This document shows positions 10,630 through 22,505 of a DNA stretch of 64,000 nucleotides, piece by piece (the first letter of the stretch is position 1; the number at the start of each line of letters is the position of its first letter). Both the position numbers and the translations under genes were made by a program. Under the pieces are notes generated by a model. That model ran no database searches. It was not told the DNA's origin and saw nothing but the letters and a program-made list of their open reading frames with translations. The stretch is from contig JAFIFU010000001.1 in NCBI GenBank assembly GCA_020831885.1, positions 186,001 through 250,000 of the forward strand. The letters are read 5' to 3'. The stretch is from Ectothiorhodospiraceae bacterium. Its GTDB lineage: Bacteria; Pseudomonadota; Gammaproteobacteria; Nitrococcales; Aquisalimonadaceae.

Positions 10630-12879
10630 TCAGTGTTCGTTTAGCAACAGCCGAACCCCGGCACCCGTCGTTTGGTGACGCACGGTGCCGATGATCCGGG
10701 CCTCACGGTATCCCAGTGCCTGGAGGGCATGGAGGCATGCCTCGGCGCGGTCCGCAGGCACGCCGGCCAGCAACCCGCCGGCTGTCTGTGGGTCGAACAA
10801 CAGCGGATAGGCCGGGTGTTCCATCGCCTTTTCCCGGTCGTGCAGCCAGGCTGAATTGCGTGTGTTCGCCTCGTGCAGGGAACTGAGCAGCCCGCTTCCG
10901 CTGGTTTCAAGGGCGCCATCAAGCCAGGGCAGCGCGTCCAGCCGGAGCTCTGCGGTCAGCCCTGTCTTCCGCGTCATCTCCAGCAGATGCCCCAGCAGGC
11001 CGAAGCCGGTGACGTCGGTGCAGGCGGTGGCACCGTGCCCCCGCAGGCATTGGGCAGCCAGCCGGCTGGACTGGCGCATGCAGTTCAGCGCCGCATCGAT
11101 CCATCGGCCCCGGGCCCGCAACTGCGCATGCGCCGCCAGCAGCGTGCCCGTTCCCAGCGGTTTGGTGAGAATGAGCGCATCGCCCGCGCCGAGCCCCTGC
11201 TTGCGCAGCAGGGCCTCCGGCCGGTCCTCTGCCAAACCGTTTACGGCAAAGCCCAGCGCCAGTTCCCGGCCTTCACCGCTGTGGCCGCCGATGAGGGCGC
11301 AATCCGCCTCGTTCAGCACCTCCAGTGCGCCACTCATCATCTGCAACAGCGTATCCGCGACCTTGTCCGGTGGACCATGGGGCACGGTGGCCACGGCACT
11401 TGCGGAATGGGGTTCGGCGCCCATGGCGTAGATGTCCCCAAGCGCATGGTTGGCCGTGATCTGGCCGAAGGTGAAGGGATCGTGGATGAAGGCACGGAAG
11501 AAGTCCACCGTCTGCAGCAGGAGTCGGTCCGGCGGCACCCGAAGCGCCGCGGCATCATCGCTTTCCGCCAAGGCGGCGATGACGCCGGAGCGCTGCACCG
11601 GCTTCAACTGGTGCAGCACGTACCGCAACGCATCCTCACCGACCTTGGCGCCGCAGCCACCGCAGCGCATCTCCTCTGGGTGCTCCCCGGGGCCTGATGC
11701 GCCTGCTGTCATGCGGCCCGGGACGGTGGGGTCGAAGCGGGCCATAAAACGCCGGTCGATGTGGTCCTTCCAGCGCCAGACCCACCGCCCGGCCAGCATC
11801 AAGCGGCCCCGGGACGCCACCGCATAACGGTCGCCGGTGCTGATCAGGGCAAGCCACTTCCGTTGTGGTCGGTATCGGCGGACCACCCGTCCCTGGATCA
11901 GCCGCCGCAGATTGTCCGCCAGGACCCGGCCCTGGCGCACCGCGAACACGCCGGCCTTCTCCCGGGGATGTCCCTCCATGCTGGCCACATCGCCCGCGGC
12001 GAATATCCGGGGGTCGGAGAGGGATTGCAGGGTGTCGGTGACGCGGATGAAACCGTGCGCATCCAGTTGCAATCCCGTTTGCCGCAGCCAGTCCGCACCA
12101 CCGGCATGGGTCACCCAGACGATTTCGTCGGCGGCCAGATGAAAGCCGTTGCCGGCCCGCAGACATCCGGACGACACCCGTTCCACCCGCGCCTGGCAGT
12201 GCAGGACAATGCCACGTTGTTGCAGGATCCGCCGGAAGTGCCGGCGGACGGCCGCGTTATGGCTTGGGAGGATGTCGGTTTCGGCACTGAACAGATGTAC
12301 TTCCAACTGGTCAGGGGCGTGCCCCCGGGTGATCAACTCCTGCCGCAAACGGTATTGCATGGCCAGGGCCAGCTCCACACCACCGGCCCCGGCGCCCACG
12401 ACGGCGATGCGAATCGGCCCGGTGTGTTGCTGTACGCGCTGCAACAGGGTCTGCCAGCTCTGGTTGAACCGATGGATGGGCTTGACCGGAATAACGTGTC
12501 GCGCGGCGCCCGGTACCTGGCTCACCCGGGGGGCGGAGCCGGTATTGATGGATGCCAGGTCGTAGGGGACCGGCGGGCGGCCGCGGCACAGGATGCTGCC
12601 GGCCTTCCGGTCCAGTCCCACCGCCTCGGCACGGTAGAACCTCGCGCCGGCGAACTCGGCCAGGCGGCTGAGATCGATGTGGACGTCGTCGTACGTGTAG
12701 TGGCCGGCAATGTAGCCGGGCAGCATGCCGGAATAGGGGGTGTGCGTATCCCGGCATATCAGGGTCAGGCGCACTCCGGGCATGGGCCGCATGCCGAAAG
12801 CGCGCAATACCTGAACGTGACTGTGGCCGCCGCCCACCAGCACGATGTCCTTTTCCACCGGATGATCGGACGCCTGCAT
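10630..12879 (-). CDS. selD: NADH-dehydrogenase-like oxidoreductase fused to selenide water dikinase
   Basis: A 749-residue fusion. Residues 1 to about 390 form an FAD/NAD(P) oxidoreductase of the Ndh-2 type, with VGGGHSHVQVL near the start, [14 protein letters not shown] as the second dinucleotide site, and FAAGDVASM. From about 400 to the end it is SelD, which makes selenophosphate from selenide and ATP. The key motif RCGGCGAK holds Cys409 and Lys412, equivalent to E. coli Cys17 and Lys20. The active site uses Cys, not Sec. Such fusions are known in other bacteria and are thought to couple redox chemistry to selenium supply (inference). tRNA-Sec lies 60 bp upstream. Confidence 0.95.
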   Translation of the reverse strand: MQASDHPVEKDIVLVGGGHSHVQVLRAFGMRPMPGVRLTLICRDTHTPYSGMLPGYIAGHYTYDDVHIDLSRLAEFAGARFYRAEAVGLDRKAGSILCRGRPPVPYDLASINTGSAPRVSQVPGAARHVIPVKPIHRFNQSWQTLLQRVQQHTGPIRIAVVGAGAGGVELALAMQYRLRQELITRGHAPDQLEVHLFSAETDILPSHNAAVRRHFRRILQQRGIVLHCQARVERVSSGCLRAGNGFHLAADEIVWVTHAGGADWLRQTGLQLDAHGFIRVTDTLQSLSDPRIFAAGDVASMEGHPREKAGVFAVRQGRVLADNLRRLIQGRVVRRYRPQRKWLALISTGDRYAVASRGRLMLAGRWVWRWKDHIDRRFMARFDPTVPGRMTAGASGPGEHPEEMRCGGCGAKVGEDALRYVLHQLKPVQRSGVIAALAESDDAAALRVPPDRLLLQTVDFFRAFIHDPFTFGQITANHALGDIYAMGAEPHSASAVATVPHGPPDKVADTLLQMMSGALEVLNEADCALIGGHSGEGRELALGFAVNGLAEDRPEALLRKQGLGAGDALILTKPLGTGTLLAAHAQLRARGRWIDAALNCMRQSSRLAAQCLRGHGATACTDVTGFGLLGHLLEMTRKTGLTAELRLDALPWLDGALETSGSGLLSSLHEANTRNSAWLHDREKAMEHPAYPLLFDPQTAGGLLAGVPADRAEACLHALQALGYREARIIGTVRHQTTGAGVRLLLNEH

Positions 12880-12939: not shown

Positions 12940-13035
12940 TGGCGGAAGGGGGTGGGAGTCGAACCCACCAGACGCGCCTGGCGCGTCTCACCGGATTTGA
13001 AGTCCGGGCGCTCCACCGGGAAGCGATCCCCTTCC
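12940..13035 (-). tRNA. selC: tRNA-Sec (anticodon UCA)
   Basis: The minus-strand product is 96 nt including an encoded CCA. It has the 8-bp acceptor stem GGAAGGGG/CCCCTTCC, the anticodon loop ACTTCAAA with UCA, a long variable arm (GACGCGCC/GGCGCGTC) and the T arm GGTTCGACTCC. The long acceptor and variable arms and the UCA anticodon are diagnostic of bacterial selenocysteine tRNA. It lies between selB and the selD fusion, so it may be cut from the same transcript. No clear promoter of its own was seen. Confidence 0.97.
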
Positions 13036-13145: not shown

Positions 13146-15041
13146 TCAGCGCAGGCCGCGCCGTTCGCCGTCGAAACGGGTGATGCCCAGGCGGTCCAGG
13201 TGCTCCAGGACCTGGATGGTCAGATTGCGGCCGATGCCGCTGCGGTCCCGGTAACCGGCCGCATCGAACAGCCTATCCGGGGATTCCTCGGCCAGTTCTC
13301 TGGCCAGATCCGCCAGCGTCTCCACAGTTTCTGGCAGAAAATAGCGGTTGGGCGCAACCCGTTCCAGATAGCCCAGGCGGCTCAGTGACTGCAGTCGCTC
13401 CATCAGCGCCTGGCGCTCCAGTCCCAGTTGATCGGCAAGCTCGCCGACCAGGGGCGGCCGCAGTCCGGCGCCGCGTAGTGCGTGGGTGACCGCCTCCAAC
13501 AGGGCCGCATCCGCGGTTTCCAGGCGTGGCCGGTGATCGGGCAGGCGCAGGTTGAAGCCCTGCCGCACCAGGAGCGACTTCTCCAGCAGTGCCCGGATCG
13601 CCGCCCGGACCAGGGCGCCGGGGAGCGTCCGTCCCAGACGCTCGGCCAGAGCGGATTCGCCAGGGCCGACACTGGCGGGGTCCAGCGCGTGCCAGCGGGC
13701 TACCGCGTTCAGCACCTCCCTCTGGACCTCCTGCCAGCGGTTTTCCGTGATCAGCAACGGCCCCTCCCGGGTGGCAATCCGCAAGCCGGGTGTTGCGTCG
13801 GCGAGCGCCGCTGCCTGTTCCGGCGTGAGGTTCCTGGTGCGGACGAAGGCCGGCAGAAAAATGCCCGTTGGGCTGAGTTCCAGCAGCGAGCCAAGCGCCC
13901 GGGCGTGGTCCGCGTCGGCCAGTGCCTCCAGTAGGGACAGCCGCTCCGGTCGACCGCGCCCGCGACGGGGAGGGGTCGGATCGATCACCTTGCCGCCGCC
14001 CAGGGTCCGCCAGGCGGACTGATCCCGGATGATGAAACGGTCACCATGCAGGCCATGGATCGGCCGCTCCAGCACCAGCTGTGCCAGGCCGCGCTCACCG
14101 ACGCCCAGGCTGTGGCGGCCCAGCAGTGCAACCCTTGCGGTGACATCAGCCGCACCCAGGTGCAGATGGACCGGTGTCCAGTGTTTCAGGGCGCGCTGCT
14201 CGGACGGCAGCAGCCCAAGCTCCACGTCCAGTCGCCGGGTGACCAGTTCCGCGGGCTCGGCCACGACCCAGTCGCCGCGACGGATCGCCTCCCGGTCCAA
14301 CCGGCTGCCGGACAGGTTCAGGGCGCAGCGTTCGCCGGCGACCACCTGGTCCCGCCGCTGTCCCTGTCCTCGCAAATCCCGCACGCGGGCGGGTATGCCG
14401 CCGGGGACCACGCGCAGATGCTCGTCCTTTCGGACGCTACCGTCGAATACCGTGCCGGTGACCACAAGACCCGCCCCATCCACGGTGAAGCAGCGGTCCA
14501 CCGCCAGGCGGAAATTGCCGTCGGCCTTCCTCCAGGGGAGCGTTTCGCTGCACCGGGTCAGATGCCGTTTCAGTGCATCCATCCCGGCTCCGGTCTGCGC
14601 GGAGACAGGAAAAACAGGCGCACCCGTCAGGCAGGTGCCTTCCACCAGCTCCGGGATCCCTTCCGTCACCTGCAGCAACCGTTCCCCACTGACCCGATCC
14701 GTCTTGCTCACCACCACGGCGCCATGACGCAGGCCGAGCAGATGGAGTATCGCCAGATGCTCCCGGGTCTGGGGCATGGGCCCGTCATCGGCGGCGATCA
14801 CCAGCAGCACGAAATCCACGGCGGCCACACCGGCCAGCATGTTACGGATGAAGCGTTCGTGTCCCGGGACGTCCACGAAGCCGATGCGCCGCAGCGACGG
14901 GCCGTCCATGTAGGCGAATCCCAGGTCGATGGTCAGCCCGCGACGCTTCTCTTCCTCCGTCCGATCCGTGTCGACGCCTGTCAGCGCCCGCACCAGCGCG
15001 GTCTTGCCGTGATCCACATGGCCTGCGGTTGCCACGATCAT
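13146..15041 (-). CDS. selB: Selenocysteine-specific elongation factor
   Basis: A 631-residue GTPase that carries Sec-tRNA-Sec to the ribosome at UGA codons next to a SECIS hairpin. GTP-binding motifs are GHVDHGKT (7-14), [14 protein letters not shown] and VSKTD. EF-Tu-like domains II and III follow, and the C-terminal third is a series of winged helices that in known SelB bind the SECIS RNA. The ATG at 15041 overlaps the selA stop as ATGA. Length is close to E. coli SelB (614). It is the expected partner of selC and of the two UGA-containing genes upstream. Confidence 0.96.
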
Positions 15042-16420
15042 GGTGCCAAGGGCTCCGTGAACTGCGCCCGGAACGTCTTCTCGTCTTCCAGGCAGCGCAG
15101 ATCCAGCAGCACCGCACCACTCCTGATGCGGCCGATCACGGGGACCGGGCGTCGGCGGAGGGTTTCCGCCAGGCTCAGCGCCGACGTGGCTGCCGGGCGC
15201 AGGCGCAGGGCGACGCTGGGCAGCAGGTCCACCGGCAGCGACCCACTCCCTATCTGGCTCTGCACGGAAATCACATCCACCCGCCCGGCGGCACCCAGCC
15301 AGTGGGCGAGCACCGGTTGCAGCCGTTCCGCCAGCGTCCGGATCTCGTCGGTGCCCCGCGTCAGCAGCCGCAGTGCCGGTACACGCTCCGCCAGGTGGTC
15401 CGGATCGGCACACAGGCGCAGCACCGCCTCCAGGGCCGCCAGGGTAAGCTTGTCGCAGCGCATGGCGCGCTTCATCGGGTTCCGCCGGATGCGGCCGATC
15501 AGATCCGCACGGCCGGCGATGATGCCCGCCTGTGGCCCTCCCAGCAGTTTGTCCCCGCTGAAGGTGACCAGGTCGGCGCCACGGGTGAGGGTGTCCATCG
15601 GGGTGGGCTCCGCCGGCAGGCCGAAGCGGGTCAGGTCGGCGAGGGAGCCGCTCCCGAGATCCACCAGAAACGGCACGCCCTGCTTCCGGCATAAATCGGC
15701 CAGGGCGGATTCATCCGCCTCGGCGGTGAATCCCTGGACCTGGTAGTTGCTGGTGTGTGCCTTGAGGACCAGGGCGGGCTTCACCGTGTCCATGGCCTCG
15801 GCGAAGTCATGGACGTGGGTGCGGTTGGTGGTGCCCACTTCCTGCAGCCGGCAGCCCGCGCGGCGCATAATGTCCGGTAGCCGGAATGAGCCGCCGATCT
15901 CGATCAGCTCACCCCGGGAGACCAGCACACGGCGTCGCAGGGCCAGGCTGTTCAGGGCCAGCAGGACGGCGGCGGCGTTGTTGTTGACCACGGTTGCCGC
16001 CTCCGCACCGGTCAGCCGGCACAGCCAGCGCTCCACGTGGACATCCCGGTCGCCGCGCCTGCCCCGTTCCAGATCGTATTCCAGGTTCGAGGCTCCGGCG
16101 GCGATCCGGGTCATCGCGGCGATTGCTTCCGGGGGCAGGGGGGCGCGGCCGAGATTGGTATGCAGCACGGTGCCGGTGAGATTGAACACCGGCTTCAGGG
16201 ATGGGGATATCTGTGCCTGCAAGGCGGTGGTGATGCCATCTGTGATGGCGGTATCGGTGCAGGGGCGCTGGCCGCGGCGGCACTCTTCCAGGGTTCTGCG
16301 CACGGCCTCCACGGTCAGGGGGCGGCCATGGGTCTGCAGGAGCGCCGCCACCACCGGCCAGGCCAGTATACGGTCCACCGACGGCGGCCGGGGATACGTC
16401 GACGGGTTGCGGGAGCTCAT
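15038..16420 (-). CDS. selA: L-seryl-tRNA(Sec) selenium transferase
   Basis: A 460-residue PLP enzyme that converts Ser-tRNA-Sec to Sec-tRNA-Sec using selenophosphate. The PLP lysine is Lys291 in SGDKLLGGPQAG, near E. coli Lys295. NLTGTVLHTNLGRAP, EYDLERGRRGDR and VNNNAAAVLL match conserved SelA segments. The N-terminal tRNA-binding region (about 1-70) is present, so this is the long bacterial form. It begins 132 bp after the UGSC gene in the same direction and overlaps selB by 4 bp. A 7-bp stem-loop lies in the gap before it. Confidence 0.97.
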   Translation of the reverse strand: MSSRNPSTYPRPPSVDRILAWPVVAALLQTHGRPLTVEAVRRTLEECRRGQRPCTDTAITDGITTALQAQISPSLKPVFNLTGTVLHTNLGRAPLPPEAIAAMTRIAAGASNLEYDLERGRRGDRDVHVERWLCRLTGAEAATVVNNNAAAVLLALNSLALRRRVLVSRGELIEIGGSFRLPDIMRRAGCRLQEVGTTNRTHVHDFAEAMDTVKPALVLKAHTSNYQVQGFTAEADESALADLCRKQGVPFLVDLGSGSLADLTRFGLPAEPTPMDTLTRGADLVTFSGDKLLGGPQAGIIAGRADLIGRIRRNPMKRAMRCDKLTLAALEAVLRLCADPDHLAERVPALRLLTRGTDEIRTLAERLQPVLAHWLGAAGRVDVISVQSQIGSGSLPVDLLPSVALRLRPAATSALSLAETLRRRPVPVIGRIRSGAVLLDLRCLEDEKTFRAQFTEPLAP

Positions 16421-16552: not shown

Positions 16553-17077
16553 TCAGGTGGCGCGCAGGGCACCCAGGATGGCATCAAGCGCGTCATCGGC
16601 CAACTGCCGCATCTCCGCGTCGGTGCGGTCCTGAATCGGATGGGCGACAAACACCATCGCCGGATCGAAACCCAGCGAACGGCTCTGCATCTCTGCGGCC
16701 TGGACGAACTCCGTTGATGCAACGCCAACTCCGGGTATGCCTCGACCTTCCAGGTCTGCGATGTCATGCATACAGCACGACGTGCAGGAGCCTCAGTCGG
16801 CCAGACCTTCCACCACCAGATCGCATTCCGCGGCAATCTGCTGGCGCAGGGCCGTGGGGGCAACCCGGGTGAACGTGGGTTTCCGGTAGCGCCGTACCTG
16901 AATGCCCCGGGACTGCAGCAAGGCGTCGACACGGTCTAGGAACACGTCGCCGCGGGCCTTGGAGATGTCCAGCAGGCCGACGGTGAGCCCATCCAGGCTC
17001 GCCGGTCGCGCCAGCCGCTCCCGGGCCGCCGGGGACCGTTCCGACGTCGGGTCCAGCAGGTGTAGATCTGCGTTCAT
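16553..17077 (-). CDS. UGSC-motif selenoprotein (in-frame UGA read as Sec95)
   Basis: A 174-residue protein if the TGA at 16793-16795 is read as selenocysteine. The frame before (94 residues, ending VVEGLAD) and after (GSCTSCCMHDIADLEGRG) runs on without a shift, giving Sec-Gly-Ser-Cys. UGSC proteins were described earlier from ocean metagenome surveys of selenoproteins, and their function is unknown. A SECIS-type hairpin follows the UGA (16756-16787). The gene ends in a normal TGA at 16553-16555. Its ATG overlaps the stop of the thioredoxin-fusion gene (ATGA). The Sec and neighbouring cysteines point to a thiol/selenol redox role (inference). Confidence 0.88.
16756..16787 (-). promoter_or_regulatory. 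bSECIS hairpin of the UGSC gene
   Basis: Counting from the base after UGA, nt 6-10 pair with 32 and 34-37, and nt 12-18 (GUCGUGC) pair with 24-30 (GCAUGAC) including one G-U pair. The apical loop is UGUAU at 19-23, with G as its second base. The position, 18 nt from UGA, and the loop G fit the published bacterial SECIS rules. Folding was done by eye. Confidence 0.7.
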
Positions 17078-18540
17078 CCAGTGATCTCCCTGGTAACGGG
17101 CGATGAGCCGACCGGGCCGGAGGCGGCCCAGCCGGCGATCACCGCGGAAAACAGACCGGCGGTGCCGCCGGCCCGAACGATCAGCAACCCCCCGGGGCGG
17201 AACTTGGGAATCCTCTGGCCAGCGGCGCTGGCCGGCAGGCCTTCCGCGATGCCGTCAGCCCCCGCCAGCAGTTCGTCGCCCGGCATGAGCAGTAAACGTT
17301 CCAGTTCTTCCCGTAGCCGCTGCCGCGACCAGCCGGCCTCGCTGAACACGCGATGATGCTCCGGCGATACCACGAGCGTGGCGTCGCCGGCCATGGCCAT
17401 CTTGGTGTTGTCCACCGCGCGCAGCGAGTTGGCGAAGCTGCGCGCCAGGGACTCCGGTGTGCGGGATTTCTGGTCCACGATGCCCTGCACACCCTCGCCG
17501 GCAAACAGCGTGACGGTGGACGCCTCGGGCGGAAAGCCCCGCTCCACGGACAGGGAGCCCCAGTCGCTGTCTTCTGCTTCCGCGAAACAGAACGTGTACT
17601 TGCCGGGGTTGCCCAGGGTGGCCCGGTCGATCTCGCCCGGGCGGCCGCCCCCCACATTGCGGATAACCAGTTGCAGTGCCCGGCCGATGGTTGCGTTGGC
17701 GCGGTTGCCCTGGCCCAGGGCATTGACCCCGGAGTTCATGCCGATGGCCCGGGTGATTGGCCCGTTCACGATCACCATCGGCCCGGCGAACATGGTGGTG
17801 CAAAGCAGGCCGTGCATGCCGAATTCCTCGGTCAGGGCCGCTTCCACGGCGGCGATGACCACAGGCAGGTATTCCGGTTTGCAGCCGGCCATCACGGCGT
17901 TGATGGCGACTTTCTCGACGGTGCAGGGAGCCAGATCCGGGGGTACCTCCCCCAGATTCTCGGATGGTGCGCGATGCGTGCCCTGGAGCATGCGGAGGAC
18001 CCGCTCCCGGGTTGGCGGCACAACCGGAAGACCGTCCGTCCAGCCCCGCTCGTAGCAGGCCTCCATCACGTCCTCGGCATCACCGAGATCGATCTCCCGC
18101 GAACGCAGCAGACTCCGGTCAAAGCGGGCGGCGAGCTTGTCCGCCATCCCCGGATCCTGGGTCTTCGAGCCGCAGCCAGGCCGCGTCTCCGGCAGCTCGG
18201 CGCCCAACGGTTGCTGGCCACTCAGTGTCTGCCAGTCGCCGCGATGCCATCCGTAGGTGCGTCCCACCTCCCGACCGTTCTCCACCCGGATCAGCGTGGG
18301 CACGATTTCCACGTCCAACTGCCAGGACGTTTCCAGGCTCGCATCATGAACGACCTTGGGCAGGCCGTTGCCGTAAGCGGGGTCGTCCTGACTGTACACC
18401 GTGAGTGGCAGCGGTCCGTCCGCCAGCTCGTGCAGCACGGGCTCGATCAGTGTGCAGGTGGGGCAATCGCGCTTGGCGATGACGATGAGGCCGTCGGGCA
18501 GGGCGGGCACGGGCGAATCCTCAGTGACAGGAGAAGACAT
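17074..18540 (-). CDS. Thioredoxin-fold domain fused to a large UGSC-associated domain
   Basis: A 488-residue protein of unknown function. Residues 1 to about 110 look thioredoxin-like: RDCPTCTLIEP near residue 26 gives the CxxC motif, and IVPTLI gives the cis-Pro loop. A linker with RPGCGSKTQ (a Cys-Gly-Ser) follows. The remaining 340 residues have the motifs TDGLPVVPPT, INAVMAGCKPEYLPVV, VIVNGPI, NSGVNALGQGNRANATIGRA and PGKYTFCFAE. They are Gly-rich and may bind a substrate or cofactor, but no enzyme class is evident. The gene overlaps the UGSC gene by ATGA and lies 90 bp after the GrdB-like gene, so the three probably act together. ATG 18540 is preferred over a TTG just upstream. Confidence 0.8.
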   Translation of the reverse strand: MSSPVTEDSPVPALPDGLIVIAKRDCPTCTLIEPVLHELADGPLPLTVYSQDDPAYGNGLPKVVHDASLETSWQLDVEIVPTLIRVENGREVGRTYGWHRGDWQTLSGQQPLGAELPETRPGCGSKTQDPGMADKLAARFDRSLLRSREIDLGDAEDVMEACYERGWTDGLPVVPPTRERVLRMLQGTHRAPSENLGEVPPDLAPCTVEKVAINAVMAGCKPEYLPVVIAAVEAALTEEFGMHGLLCTTMFAGPMVIVNGPITRAIGMNSGVNALGQGNRANATIGRALQLVIRNVGGGRPGEIDRATLGNPGKYTFCFAEAEDSDWGSLSVERGFPPEASTVTLFAGEGVQGIVDQKSRTPESLARSFANSLRAVDNTKMAMAGDATLVVSPEHHRVFSEAGWSRQRLREELERLLLMPGDELLAGADGIAEGLPASAAGQRIPKFRPGGLLIVRAGGTAGLFSAVIAGWAASGPVGSSPVTREITG

Positions 18541-18629
18541 CAATCAGAGCCTAGCATACGCCTGAAACGAAATGCATGGCCTGGCAGGGGCGGCCAATGC
18601 CACGGGGACAGGCTGTGGATCCGGGTGCG

Positions 18630-19844
18630 TCATAGACCGAGTCGCACCCGTTGCTCAGCGGGGATCAACTGGCCCCCGGCCACCGCGCGAAGTATCTTGT
18701 CGTCCGAGGCCATTGCCGTGGCCCGCAGGCGGATCAGCACCTGGGCCGCGGTGGTTGTGTCCCAGAACCAGTGCTGCAATTGACGACTGGAAGGCCGTCC
18801 CCCCATGGACGCGGCCTCCAGATACTGCGCCTTCAGGTCGTCCGCCGCCAGCCGCATGGCGATGGCCAGGCGCTGTTCCGGCATCGGGTTCTCCGGCACC
18901 GTGCCGCTGGCCATGGCACAGAGAAATTCGGTGATGCGCTCGGCAGGCAAGGCGCTGTTACCGACCGTGGTTCGCCCGCGGCTTGCCACCGCTTGCCGGT
19001 AAACAGGGGCGATGGCCTCCTGCTCGGCCGCAAGGGCATCCCGCAGGGAGGCCGGGTTCCTGGATCCGTTCGGTCCCGCCGGCAGCGCTGGCGGTTGCCA
19101 GGCCGGGTCATCGGCGAAGCCGGCGGCCTGCCGTGGGAAGTCCATGATCAAACCAGGCTCCCGAACCTGCTCCAGCAGTCCTAACGCCTGGCTTAGCACC
19201 AGCCGCTGGAACGCCCCGTCACCGGGTTCACCCAGAGGGCGACCCAGCTCGAAAGGCACCCACAGCGTACGGGGCGGCCGGATCCGCTCGCTGTGTGGCC
19301 GGAAAAGACTGATGCAGATCGTGGCGATGCCCGCTGACTCCAGGTAATGCCCCAGCGCGCTCACGGCGCGCGTGCAATGGGGTCAGACGGGGAGCAGGAC
19401 GGCTGCCGTCACCCCTTGATCGCGGAAGTCCCGGACCAGTTCCTCGGCGTGGGGTTGCATCAGTTCCGGGTCGGTTGCGCCCATGAAGCTGTAATGGGTG
19501 TCCGCGGCATTCCCGATCAGGTCCTGTTCCGCGAGTTCCCGCAGCCGCTGCCGTGGAAGCATGACTTCCACGTCCTGTTGGAAGCCGGTCCGATCGAAGT
19601 TGACCGAAACGTGCGTGATCAGCAGGTCTTCGTCCCCGGTCTCTTTCGCAATACTGCGGAAGTCTTTCGCATTCGGTTTGAAGGGCGGTTCCCCCCGCAC
19701 GCTCAAGCCCGCCGTGGAAACCAATGCGACGGTGTGCTGGAGCAAGGGCCGGGGCGGTACCAGGGCCGTGGACCCGAATGTCGGGCATGACAGCGCGAGC
19801 ATGTTCTCCCGCAGCACCGGGGGCAGATCGTCCAGTCGGGCCAT
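18630..19844 (-). CDS. GrdB-like selenoprotein (in-frame UGA read as Sec154)
   Basis: A 404-residue protein of the glycine/sarcosine/betaine/D-proline reductase selenoprotein B family if the TGA at 19383-19385 is decoded as Sec. The frame is uninterrupted on both sides: residues before end AAVLLPV, and the Sec is followed by PHCT, giving the UxxCT motif of the family. VALVSTAGL and SFMG are further family-like motifs. Known members cleave a C-N bond reductively through a Sec-bound intermediate; the substrate here is unknown. A GGAGG site precedes the ATG. A SECIS hairpin begins right after the UGA, and the gene ends in an ordinary TGA. Confidence 0.88.
19350..19382 (-). promoter_or_regulatory. 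bSECIS hairpin of the GrdB-like gene
   Basis: Immediately after UGA, nt 1-5 (CCCCA) pair with 29-33 (UGGGG), nt 8 pairs with 28, and nt 11-15 (CGCGC) pair with 23-27 (GCGCG). Unpaired UU and CA bulges lie on the 5' side. The apical loop is GCCGUGA (16-22) with G first. Distance and loop composition fit bacterial SECIS rules. Folding was done by eye. Confidence 0.7.
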
Positions 19845-19919
19845 AAGAGCGGCCTCCGTTTGTGTCTCAATGGGGGAGTTTGCGGCCCGGGGTGAACCGG
19901 AAGCAAATCTCCTGCGGCC

Positions 19920-20906
19920 TCAGCCGATGGTCTCGTCAATGACCAGCAGCGATTTGCCGATCGCCTTGCCTGACAGCGCGAACGCCAGCGCCTCCGTATG
20001 CCGATCAAAACCGAAACGACGCCCGATGGGCGGCCTCAGTTTTCCGGCAGAGACCCAGGATAACAGACGATCAATCATGTCATCCGCCGCATCGGGTTCA
20101 AGGATCTGCCCGAATTGCCGGGTGTCGACACCGATCAGGGCCGCGCCTTTGAGCAGGGGGAGATTGAGCCGCAATGCCGGAATGTCTCCGTGGGCGAAAC
20201 CGATCACCAGGTAGCGACCCCGCCATTTCAATGAACGGAATGCGGGCTCCATCAGCGGACCACAGACCGGATCGTAGACCACGTCAATGCCGTGGGGCGC
20301 TAGTTCCCTGAGCCGCTCCCGCCAACCATCCGGCTCCCGGTCCAGTACAGCGGCCGCCCCGGCTTCCCGGGCTGCCGTACGCTTCTCTTCCGTGGAGGCG
20401 ACGGCGATGACCCGCGCACCGAGCGCTCGGCCCACGTCCACCGCTGCCAGTCCGGTGCCGCCCGCGGCTCCCATCACCAGCACGGTTTCGCCGGATTCGA
20501 GGCTGCCTCGATCCATCAAGCCGTGCATGGCGGTCAGGTAGTTGCCTCGGAAGACGGCGGCTTGCGGGAGCGTCATCCCGTCAGGCAGCACCTTCACGTC
20601 CTTCGCCTCGGCGGCGGCGTACTGGGCGAAGCCGCCCTGAACGCTGGCCAGAACACGCATTCCCGGCCTCAGGCCGGTGACGCCGGGACCGATCGAGTCG
20701 ATGACGCCGGCAACCTCGCTGCCGGGTACGTGGGGAAGCGCGGGCTTCGTCTGGTATCGGCCCAAGGCGATCAAGGCGTCCACGTAACCGATACTGCAGT
20801 ATGCCACCCTGATCCGGACCTGACCGTCACCGGGTGCCGGTGTCGGCAGATCGACGACGCGGTACGCATCCAGGGCGTCCAGATTGTCCGCCTGAACAGC
20901 TTTCAT
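19920..20906 (-). CDS. NADPH:quinone reductase-like MDR oxidoreductase
   Basis: A 328-residue medium-chain dehydrogenase/reductase of the zinc-less quinone oxidoreductase / NDUFA-like group. The N-terminal GroES-like fold has HVPGSEVAGVI near residue 60, and the NAD(P) site is VLVMGAAGGTGLAAVDVGRALGA cut here as VMGAAGGTGLAA around residue 145. No structural or catalytic zinc cysteines are present. It lies 75 bp upstream of the GrdB-like gene in the same direction and inside the repeat-bordered block, so it may feed electrons to, or process a product of, the selenoprotein system (inference). Alternatively it is a general detoxification reductase. Confidence 0.85.
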   Translation of the reverse strand: MKAVQADNLDALDAYRVVDLPTPAPGDGQVRIRVAYCSIGYVDALIALGRYQTKPALPHVPGSEVAGVIDSIGPGVTGLRPGMRVLASVQGGFAQYAAAEAKDVKVLPDGMTLPQAAVFRGNYLTAMHGLMDRGSLESGETVLVMGAAGGTGLAAVDVGRALGARVIAVASTEEKRTAAREAGAAAVLDREPDGWRERLRELAPHGIDVVYDPVCGPLMEPAFRSLKWRGRYLVIGFAHGDIPALRLNLPLLKGAALIGVDTRQFGQILEPDAADDMIDRLLSWVSAGKLRPPIGRRFGFDRHTEALAFALSGKAIGKSLLVIDETIG

Positions 20907-21035: not shown

Positions 21036-22199
21036 TCAGCGGCCGTGCTGTGCCGGATCCACCTGGGACAGGACTTCGGTCCAGTACAACTCGGCCAGTT
21101 CTTCCTTGCTGCTCACGTCGCTGACCAGCTCAATCCAGCGCTCCAGTACCGGTCGGAACTCGTCCAGCATCTCTGCGCCCCGCTGTACCCCGCGCTGATC
21201 CCGATAGACCTCCACCAGGGTTTCCATGTCACCTTCCACAAACTTGCGGGTTGCCTCCATCAGTTCCGGGGCCGCCTCGTGCACGCGCAAGCCGCGCTCC
21301 GCCTTGGCGCGTTCCAGCACCTCTTCCTCGCGCTGGTGGTATACCCACGGGATCTCGGCGGAAATATGGGCCGCCGCCCGCAGCAGCGCGCCACGCTGGT
21401 TGTCGTCAAGCGACTGCCAGGTATCCCGATTGACGCTGGTGATGGCGGCGCCGGCGAACACGCCCCCTGGGACATCGATGGTGGTGTCGGTGGTGGCCTC
21501 GATGATGCCCAGATTGGCCAGGTCCGGCGTGGAGATGATCACGCAATCCACGATGCCCTGCCGCAGGGCTTCCAATGCCTCGTTGCCCGACATGGTGACC
21601 GGCGTGGCGCCAAACTCGTTGGCCCACCGGGACCACTGCGAACCCGCCGCGCGCACCCGCTTGCCCTGCAGTTCCTCCAGGGTTCGTACCGGTGCATTGC
21701 AGTGCAGGCCGTAGTTGGAGCTGGAAGCCAGGCCCGTGAAGACCTGCTGCTGCTGCGCATACTCGTCATGGCACTCGGGGCAGTTGAAGAAGATGTACTC
21801 GAGCATGGCGCCAACGTAGGCCGGCCCTTCGCGGCCGCGGACAGCGTCGCCATAGAGTTGCATCTGCATGGCGGCTTCGGCAATGAGATTGGTGTGGGCG
21901 TACTCCGACGGGAAGTAGGCGGTGAGCAGATAACCGATATCGGCAATGCCGTCGCGCACACCGGCCGAGGTTTCGGCGAAGTTGAGCAGTGACAACGGGA
22001 AAACCCGCACCGACAGCTCGCCGTCGGAATACGTGCTCACCTTCTCGGCGTAGTTTTCGGCGGCTTTCGTGGCGTCACTGCCTGGCGGATAGCCGAGTGC
22101 GTAACGGAGAGTTTCCGCCGATGCCTGGCCCGCCAAGGCGATTCCGGCACTGAGTAGTACTGAGGCCGCACCCAGCAGGAAGCGGTTGCTGTACTTCAT
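21036..22199 (-). CDS. TRAP transporter solute-binding protein (DctP family)
   Basis: A 387-residue periplasmic binding protein. A Sec signal peptide with a cleavage site near GQASA-E (residue 28) precedes a DctP-type mature domain (YALGYPPGSDATKAAENYAEKV). RVRAAGSQWSRWANEFGATPV contains the conserved Arg region that usually contacts a substrate carboxylate. A CPECHDE segment near residue 145 is unusual for the family and could form a disulfide. No TRAP membrane subunits are adjacent, so it is an orphan here. GGAGGAG precedes the ATG. A GntR-like operator lies upstream. It could supply a substrate for the nearby GrdB-like enzyme, but that is speculative. Confidence 0.88.
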   Translation of the reverse strand: MKYSNRFLLGAASVLLSAGIALAGQASAETLRYALGYPPGSDATKAAENYAEKVSTYSDGELSVRVFPLSLLNFAETSAGVRDGIADIGYLLTAYFPSEYAHTNLIAEAAMQMQLYGDAVRGREGPAYVGAMLEYIFFNCPECHDEYAQQQQVFTGLASSSNYGLHCNAPVRTLEELQGKRVRAAGSQWSRWANEFGATPVTMSGNEALEALRQGIVDCVIISTPDLANLGIIEATTDTTIDVPGGVFAGAAITSVNRDTWQSLDDNQRGALLRAAAHISAEIPWVYHQREEEVLERAKAERGLRVHEAAPELMEATRKFVEGDMETLVEVYRDQRGVQRGAEMLDEFRPVLERWIELVSDVSSKEELAELYWTEVLSQVDPAQHGR

Positions 22200-22429: not shown

Positions 22430-22505
22430 TGGTGGGTCGTGTAGGATTCGAACCTACGACCAGCGGATTAAAAGTCCGATGCTCTACCAACTGAGCTAAC
22501 GACCC
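22430..22505 (-). tRNA. tRNA-Lys (anticodon UUU)
   Basis: A 76-nt minus-strand tRNA with acceptor stem GGGTCGT/ACGACCC, D arm GCTCAGTTGGTAGAGC, anticodon loop CTTTTAA (UUU), T arm GTAGGTTCGAATCCTAC and an encoded CCA. All arms pair fully. Confidence 0.98.

Follow-up and report, generated by a model that had tools for sequence, protein, structure and literature searches.

The UGSC family of selenoproteins is known from the Global Ocean Sampling study, where it figured as an orphan family under the name “UGSC-containing protein” (PMC2398784). In that study's account of the family a thioredoxin-like fold was guessed, with neither a function nor an obligate partner, and a fusion to a domain called Unknown_1, which is not equated here with the U1 described below, was recorded in 2008 (PMC2398784). 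Among selenium-dependent enzymes, the PrdB and GrdB proteins of amino-acid fermenters carry a UxxC selenol and work with a substrate-holding partner subunit and a thioredoxin-type reductant, in systems that also include a PrdA/GrdE-type pyruvoyl proprotein or GrdA. The Tso and SAO operons, for their part, encode several selenoproteins together (PMC13188914). The locus analysed here resembles each of these in part. It lies in a stretch of 64,000 nucleotides from a bacterium of the Ectothiorhodospiraceae (the window), and its features are as follows.

21036–22199, minus strand: TRAP transporter solute-binding protein DctP, co-directional and just upstream of the MDR gene
19920–20906, minus strand: MDR-family NAD(P)H reductase, quinone-reductase-like; not conserved with the pair
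18630–19844, minus strand: PrdB/GrdB-like selenoprotein, 404 aa; a lineage-specific companion, not part of the core
19383–19385, minus strand: Sec codon TGA of the PrdB-like gene (codon 154, LLPVUPHCTR)
19346–19385, minus strand: hairpin right after the PrdB-like Sec codon, predicted from a single sequence
17074–18540, minus strand: thioredoxin-U1 fusion (thioredoxin domain, residues 1–120; U1, residues ~150–489)
16553–17077, minus strand: UGSC selenoprotein, 174 aa, with an in-frame TGA and matches to PF24696/NF041046; flavodoxin-like fold predicted
16793–16795, minus strand: Sec codon TGA of the UGSC gene (codon 95, LADUGSCTSCC)
16764–16780, minus strand: SECIS-like hairpin (bacterial type) of the UGSC gene, 12 nt past the Sec codon; synonymous sites fixed in 35 relatives
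15038–16420, minus strand: selA
13146–15047, minus strand: selB
12940–13035, minus strand: tRNA-Sec (selC)
10630–12879, minus strand: Ndh-SelD fusion, Cys form (RCGGCG)

Transcription runs from 22.2 to 10.6 kb in the order DctP, MDR, PrdB-like, thioredoxin-U1, UGSC, selA, selB, tRNA-Sec and Ndh-SelD, with short gaps between the genes and a 4-nt overlap between those of the fusion and UGSC. An earlier sequence-only reading had placed and typed its genes correctly, leaving out only the co-directional DctP: its four co-directional genes do run into selA-selB-tRNA(Sec)-selD, all on the minus strand, and the two Sec proteins and the CxxC thioredoxin that it named were borne out, both in-frame UGAs being supported and a CPTC motif present. 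The G+C content changes smoothly along the cluster and gives no compositional sign of an island. The cluster begins right downstream of the 3′ end of a tRNA-Lys gene (22430–22505), near the tol-pal genes, which is a common integration site; a second copy of the tRNA end, as expected of an att repeat, was not found in the window.

Several independent lines support the reading of both in-frame UGAs as selenocysteine. In the 83 loci whose UGSC gene is complete, the Sec position is occupied by TGA in 80, TAG in two and a Cys codon in one. As in other bacterial selenoprotein genes, a stem-loop follows shortly past the UGA of the UGSC gene, and its wobble positions are constrained: among 35 aligned genes, columns 21, 24, 27 and 33 are fixed in all and column 18 in 34, whereas codons outside the hairpin vary. 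No compensatory double changes were seen in the hairpin among these genes, so that its support comes from synonymous constraint and not from covariation. In the PrdB-like gene, the TGA aligns to the invariant Cys/Sec of PrdBs and their Cys homologues (VPNCPVCHQ), and a TGA is found at the same position in one sampled genome. Chance or sequencing-error TGAs are ruled out by these alignments to Cys/Sec, by a position restricted to TGA, TAG or Cys, and by the constraint on the hairpin. The two TAG codons belong to Blastococcus and Geodermatophilus (L043 11020–11514; L094 11020–11484). The Geodermatophilaceae are a group that uses UAG for Sec; no tRNA-Sec(CUA) was seen within these two loci.

The small Sec protein of the window is a full member of the UGSC family (PF24696, NF041046; PMC2398784), scoring 157 bits against NF041046 (cut-off 125) and 150.8 bits against PF24696 (cut-off 25; E 5e-44), with the (U/C)GSC motif present as UGSC at residue 95. 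Its structure model (pLDDT 92) predicts a five-stranded, doubly wound alpha/beta, flavodoxin-like fold in which Sec95 opens helix 3, and the thioredoxin-like fold guessed in the published account of the family is rejected on this model. Chain H of 8s7v, from the methyl-coenzyme M reductase activation complex, ties as its best structural match (Z 11.1, rmsd 3.4 Å over 132 residues). As judged by profile comparison, UGSC is probably a remote homologue of PrdB/GrdB with its Sec at the equivalent place. Against the PrdB-like profile it aligns Sec on Sec (E 2.5e-6, probability score 88.7, although a narrower UGSC profile reached only 29), and a wider set gave E 3.3e-6 and a score of 87.9; the control gave E 0.61.

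The protein encoded next to it opens with a thioredoxin domain, recognized by its fold (Z 9.9, rmsd 2.5 Å over 90 residues) and by CPTC at residues 27–30. The remainder, U1 (residues 150–489), has no match by sequence in Pfam, NCBIfam or the PDB, and comparisons with PrdA and PrdB showed no homology to either. On plasmids of Vibrio europaeus (L015 7407–9092) and Sporomusa termitida (L016 7320–9044), U1 is found in single proteins together with a UGSC-like domain that has Met at the Sec position. Because the two domains are fused there, it is very likely that U1 and UGSC act together, and the Met in place of Sec suggests that the selenol is dispensable for some U1 proteins, which could then work without it.

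The second Sec protein of the window is PrdB-like. Its UxxC Sec aligns to the Sec/Cys of PrdB, but it scores 94.7 bits against TIGR04483 (D-proline reductase PrdB), below the 300-bit equivalog cut-off, and 21.7 bits against Pfam GRDB, under the cut-off of 22. Its C-terminus is extended by 160 aa, an addition found elsewhere in one congener alone, and a scan of viral contigs for the protein found nothing. Seen beside the PrdB/GrdB systems, the cluster lacks a PrdA/GrdE-type pyruvoyl proprotein and GrdA (no PrdA or GrdE model matched any of the eight cluster proteins scanned), U1 is not similar to PrdA, and carriers of U1 and UGSC, in contrast to the amino-acid fermenters, are spread over many phyla. 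The co-encoding of several selenoproteins recalls the Tso and SAO operons, but none of the four proteins upstream of selA matched a TsoA-C, TsoX/Y or Sao NCBIfam model.

When GTDB genomes were searched with a U1 profile, at least 588 stretches were recovered, of which the top 80 loci were read. A complete UGSC gene is present in 77 of these; U1 lies next to it and in the same direction in 71 of them, and no more than 8 kb from it in all 77. Of the other three loci, two are on short contigs without UGSC and the third is truncated by the end of its contig. Thioredoxin-fused U1 occurs with UGSC in eight phyla: Proteobacteria, Acidobacteriota, Chloroflexota, Actinomycetota, Myxococcota, Gemmatimonadota, Hydrogenedentota and Thermodesulfobacteriota. 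A sample of 398 Pseudomonadota genomes yielded U1 in five and UGSC in the same five (p 1.2e-11), and the pair was present at every one of 19 loci looked at in sampled genomes. Plasmid matches to UGSC tell the same story, ten of ten adjoining U1, including those of halophilic archaea, Arthrobacter, Embleya, Acidovorax and Paracoccus. Judged by their genes, U1 and UGSC thus form an all but obligate pair, and the conserved unit is one of two genes, not four. No further conserved neighbours of the pair were found across phyla at the loci read, where a simple ORF caller that admits spurious antisense ORFs was used. Four loci (L156, L157, L160, L162) carry two U1 paralogues on either side of, or after, a single UGSC gene, and U1 may be heteromeric there.

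What, then, might such a pair do? We think it fairly likely that U1 and UGSC, the core of the locus, make up a selenol enzyme of two components coupled to thioredoxin, in which a UGSC selenolate fed by thioredoxin acts on a small acid held by U1 in the manner of PrdB/GrdB, and that this enzyme drives the retention of the sel genes. NADPH and thioredoxin reductase would reduce the CPTC of the thioredoxin domain, which would in turn reduce a UGSC selenenylsulfide, Sec95-Cys98; the freed selenolate would then attack the U1-held substrate in a reductive reaction, by analogy with PrdB/GrdB. As in those systems, a substrate-holding partner and a thioredoxin-type reductant would be involved. The natural reading of the fusion itself, whose C27 and C30 never vary among 68 fusions, is a thioredoxin-fed selenol. 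Moreover, in Arthrobacter, Roseovarius and Variovorax the unfused pair has trxB or trxA-trxB as its neighbour, and in Paracoccus trxB-selA is found close to it. Next to several unfused pairs lie genes for TRAP or TTT binding proteins, for CoA-transferases and for related catabolic functions, which may point to imported organic acids as substrates; the substrate would probably be some small organic acid taken up through a TRAP or TTT transporter. The chemistry and the substrate are both inferred.

The sequence-only reading had instead grouped all four genes in one redox system. In such a four-gene pathway the MDR reductase would feed in electrons from NAD(P)H, and the PrdB-like protein and UGSC would serve as two selenol stations. 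This would suit the co-directional genes with their short gaps and the two Sec proteins adjoining the sel genes, as well as the congener (G010) in which the pair has kept the PrdB-like gene and a further locus (L211) where such a gene lies 1.4 kb from the pair on the opposite strand. Within the best 80 loci, however, only the window and that congener have the PrdB-like gene at the pair locus. Five of the seven pair-bearing genomes of the host's order have the pair without it at the locus, and a genome-wide search of six of these carriers found it only in the window's genome and G010, and not in the other four. Its relatives occur in 16 of the 398 sampled genomes, mostly as Cys proteins; their overlap with UGSC, own genome aside, comes to one genome (p 0.14, not significant), and that with SelB to three of the 16 (p 0.35, no significant association). 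Nor is the MDR gene conserved beside the pair at the loci read. The expectation that the four families would co-occur beyond chance therefore held for the thioredoxin fusion and UGSC, which are not independently distributed, and failed for the PrdB-like and MDR genes, which are. A conserved four-gene system is ruled out by the locus comparison and the genome searches, and a single pathway of this kind has very little chance of being right; the PrdB-like protein, MDR and DctP are rather lineage-specific additions.

Two other readings keep the pair and change its role. According to one, U1-UGSC would be a stress or detoxification system for the reduction of peroxides, electrophiles or metalloids, and not a catabolic reductase. 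Thiol oxidoreductases indeed make up most selenoproteins of aerobic marine bacteria in the survey's account (PMC2398784), and the thioredoxin-fused pair often stands alone, with no conserved metabolic neighbours. Yet the unfused pairs adjoin transporters and CoA-linked catabolic genes, the several copies per genome in one order suggest different substrates, and the UGSC model has no peroxidase-like fold, so we regard such a role as unlikely. According to the other, U1 would be mainly a hydratase or lyase with a fold like that of class I fumarases, the UGSC selenol acting as a nucleophile or redox switch with no net reduction. The top 21 Foldseek matches of the fusion model are all class I fumarases (best E 8e-4), although with a TM of only 0.24 and an rmsd of ~16 Å, so that the predicted structural similarity is weak, and the VIA list of structural matches is filled by thioredoxins, with U1 barely covered. 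Class I fumarases bind their cluster through three cysteines. U1 retains two, conserved throughout, a feature that could suit a lyase but falls short of the fumarase set. The Met-bearing fusions of Vibrio and Sporomusa lie near aconitase X and DUF126 genes, which also fits this reading; taken as a whole, it seems improbable.

If U1 and UGSC do form a thioredoxin-coupled selenol enzyme, how closely is it tied to the Sec machinery? In the host's order, thioredoxin-fused U1 and SelB occur in the same seven of 54 genomes, each of which has selA and selB in physical linkage with the pair, so that the identical distribution partly reflects co-transfer. Outside this order sel linkage is uncommon, yet SelB is above the cut-off in 38 of 40 carrier genomes, the exceptions being L064, where tRNA-Sec is present and SelB is cut by a contig end, and L088, a Cys carrier. 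In a second order (that of G192, genomes G491–G564), UGSC is present in 75 of 76 genomes and SelB in 72, and the sole genome without UGSC is also without SelB. In nearly every genome of that order UGSC is multicopy (two to six genes), and almost all the copies have an in-frame TGA; this is an unusual expansion of one selenoprotein family. Cys-type carriers behave as the earlier reading had anticipated of Cys versions: the three genomes searched (G196, G330 and L088) all lack SelB. On the U1 tree the Cys state requires at least five changes, with L088 and G196 nested within a Sec-type, thioredoxin-fused clade; Cys forms have arisen repeatedly. The Cys-type UGSC gene of L143 (G330) has a further in-frame TGA after SEKF and may be a pseudogene or contain a sequence error.

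The window itself falls in a well-supported clade of 13 members on the same tree, made up of gamma- and betaproteobacteria, most of which have selA-selB beside the pair, a pattern suggesting that the cassette was passed among them in one piece. On a Paracoccus plasmid (pFER4, L011 486–16143), trxB-selA, a Sec-type UGSC-U1 pair and selB share one region, and on a related plasmid, pBEN, SelB is also close to the pair. By distribution and linkage, then, the pair either travels together with the sel genes or needs them, and UGSC is Sec-dependent in most carriers. A selenium-dependent formate dehydrogenase was rejected as a Sec user, the formate dehydrogenase homologues of the window's genome (G000) and five relatives having no in-frame stop; this was the sole other Sec family searched genome-wide. 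The need for the U1-UGSC enzyme is the likeliest reason for the retention and transfer of the sel genes in this lineage. The stronger proposal, that U1-UGSC is a new many-phylum class of selenium-dependent reductase, the need for which alone keeps and horizontally moves a self-sufficient Sec cassette (thioredoxin-U1, UGSC, selA, selB and selC), is tentative and on balance doubtful.

UGSC was known as an orphan family. The U1 partner, the thioredoxin-U1 fusion, the probable kinship with PrdB/GrdB and the distribution matched to SelB appear to be new here, no description of them having been found in the open-access literature. A widespread orphan selenoprotein family thus gains a testable partner, U1, and a candidate job. 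With a nearly obligate partner, a probable source of electrons and a plausible relationship to PrdB/GrdB, the function of UGSC becomes directly testable, and the host's lineage offers a clear case of one enzyme pair tracking the presence of the Sec code.
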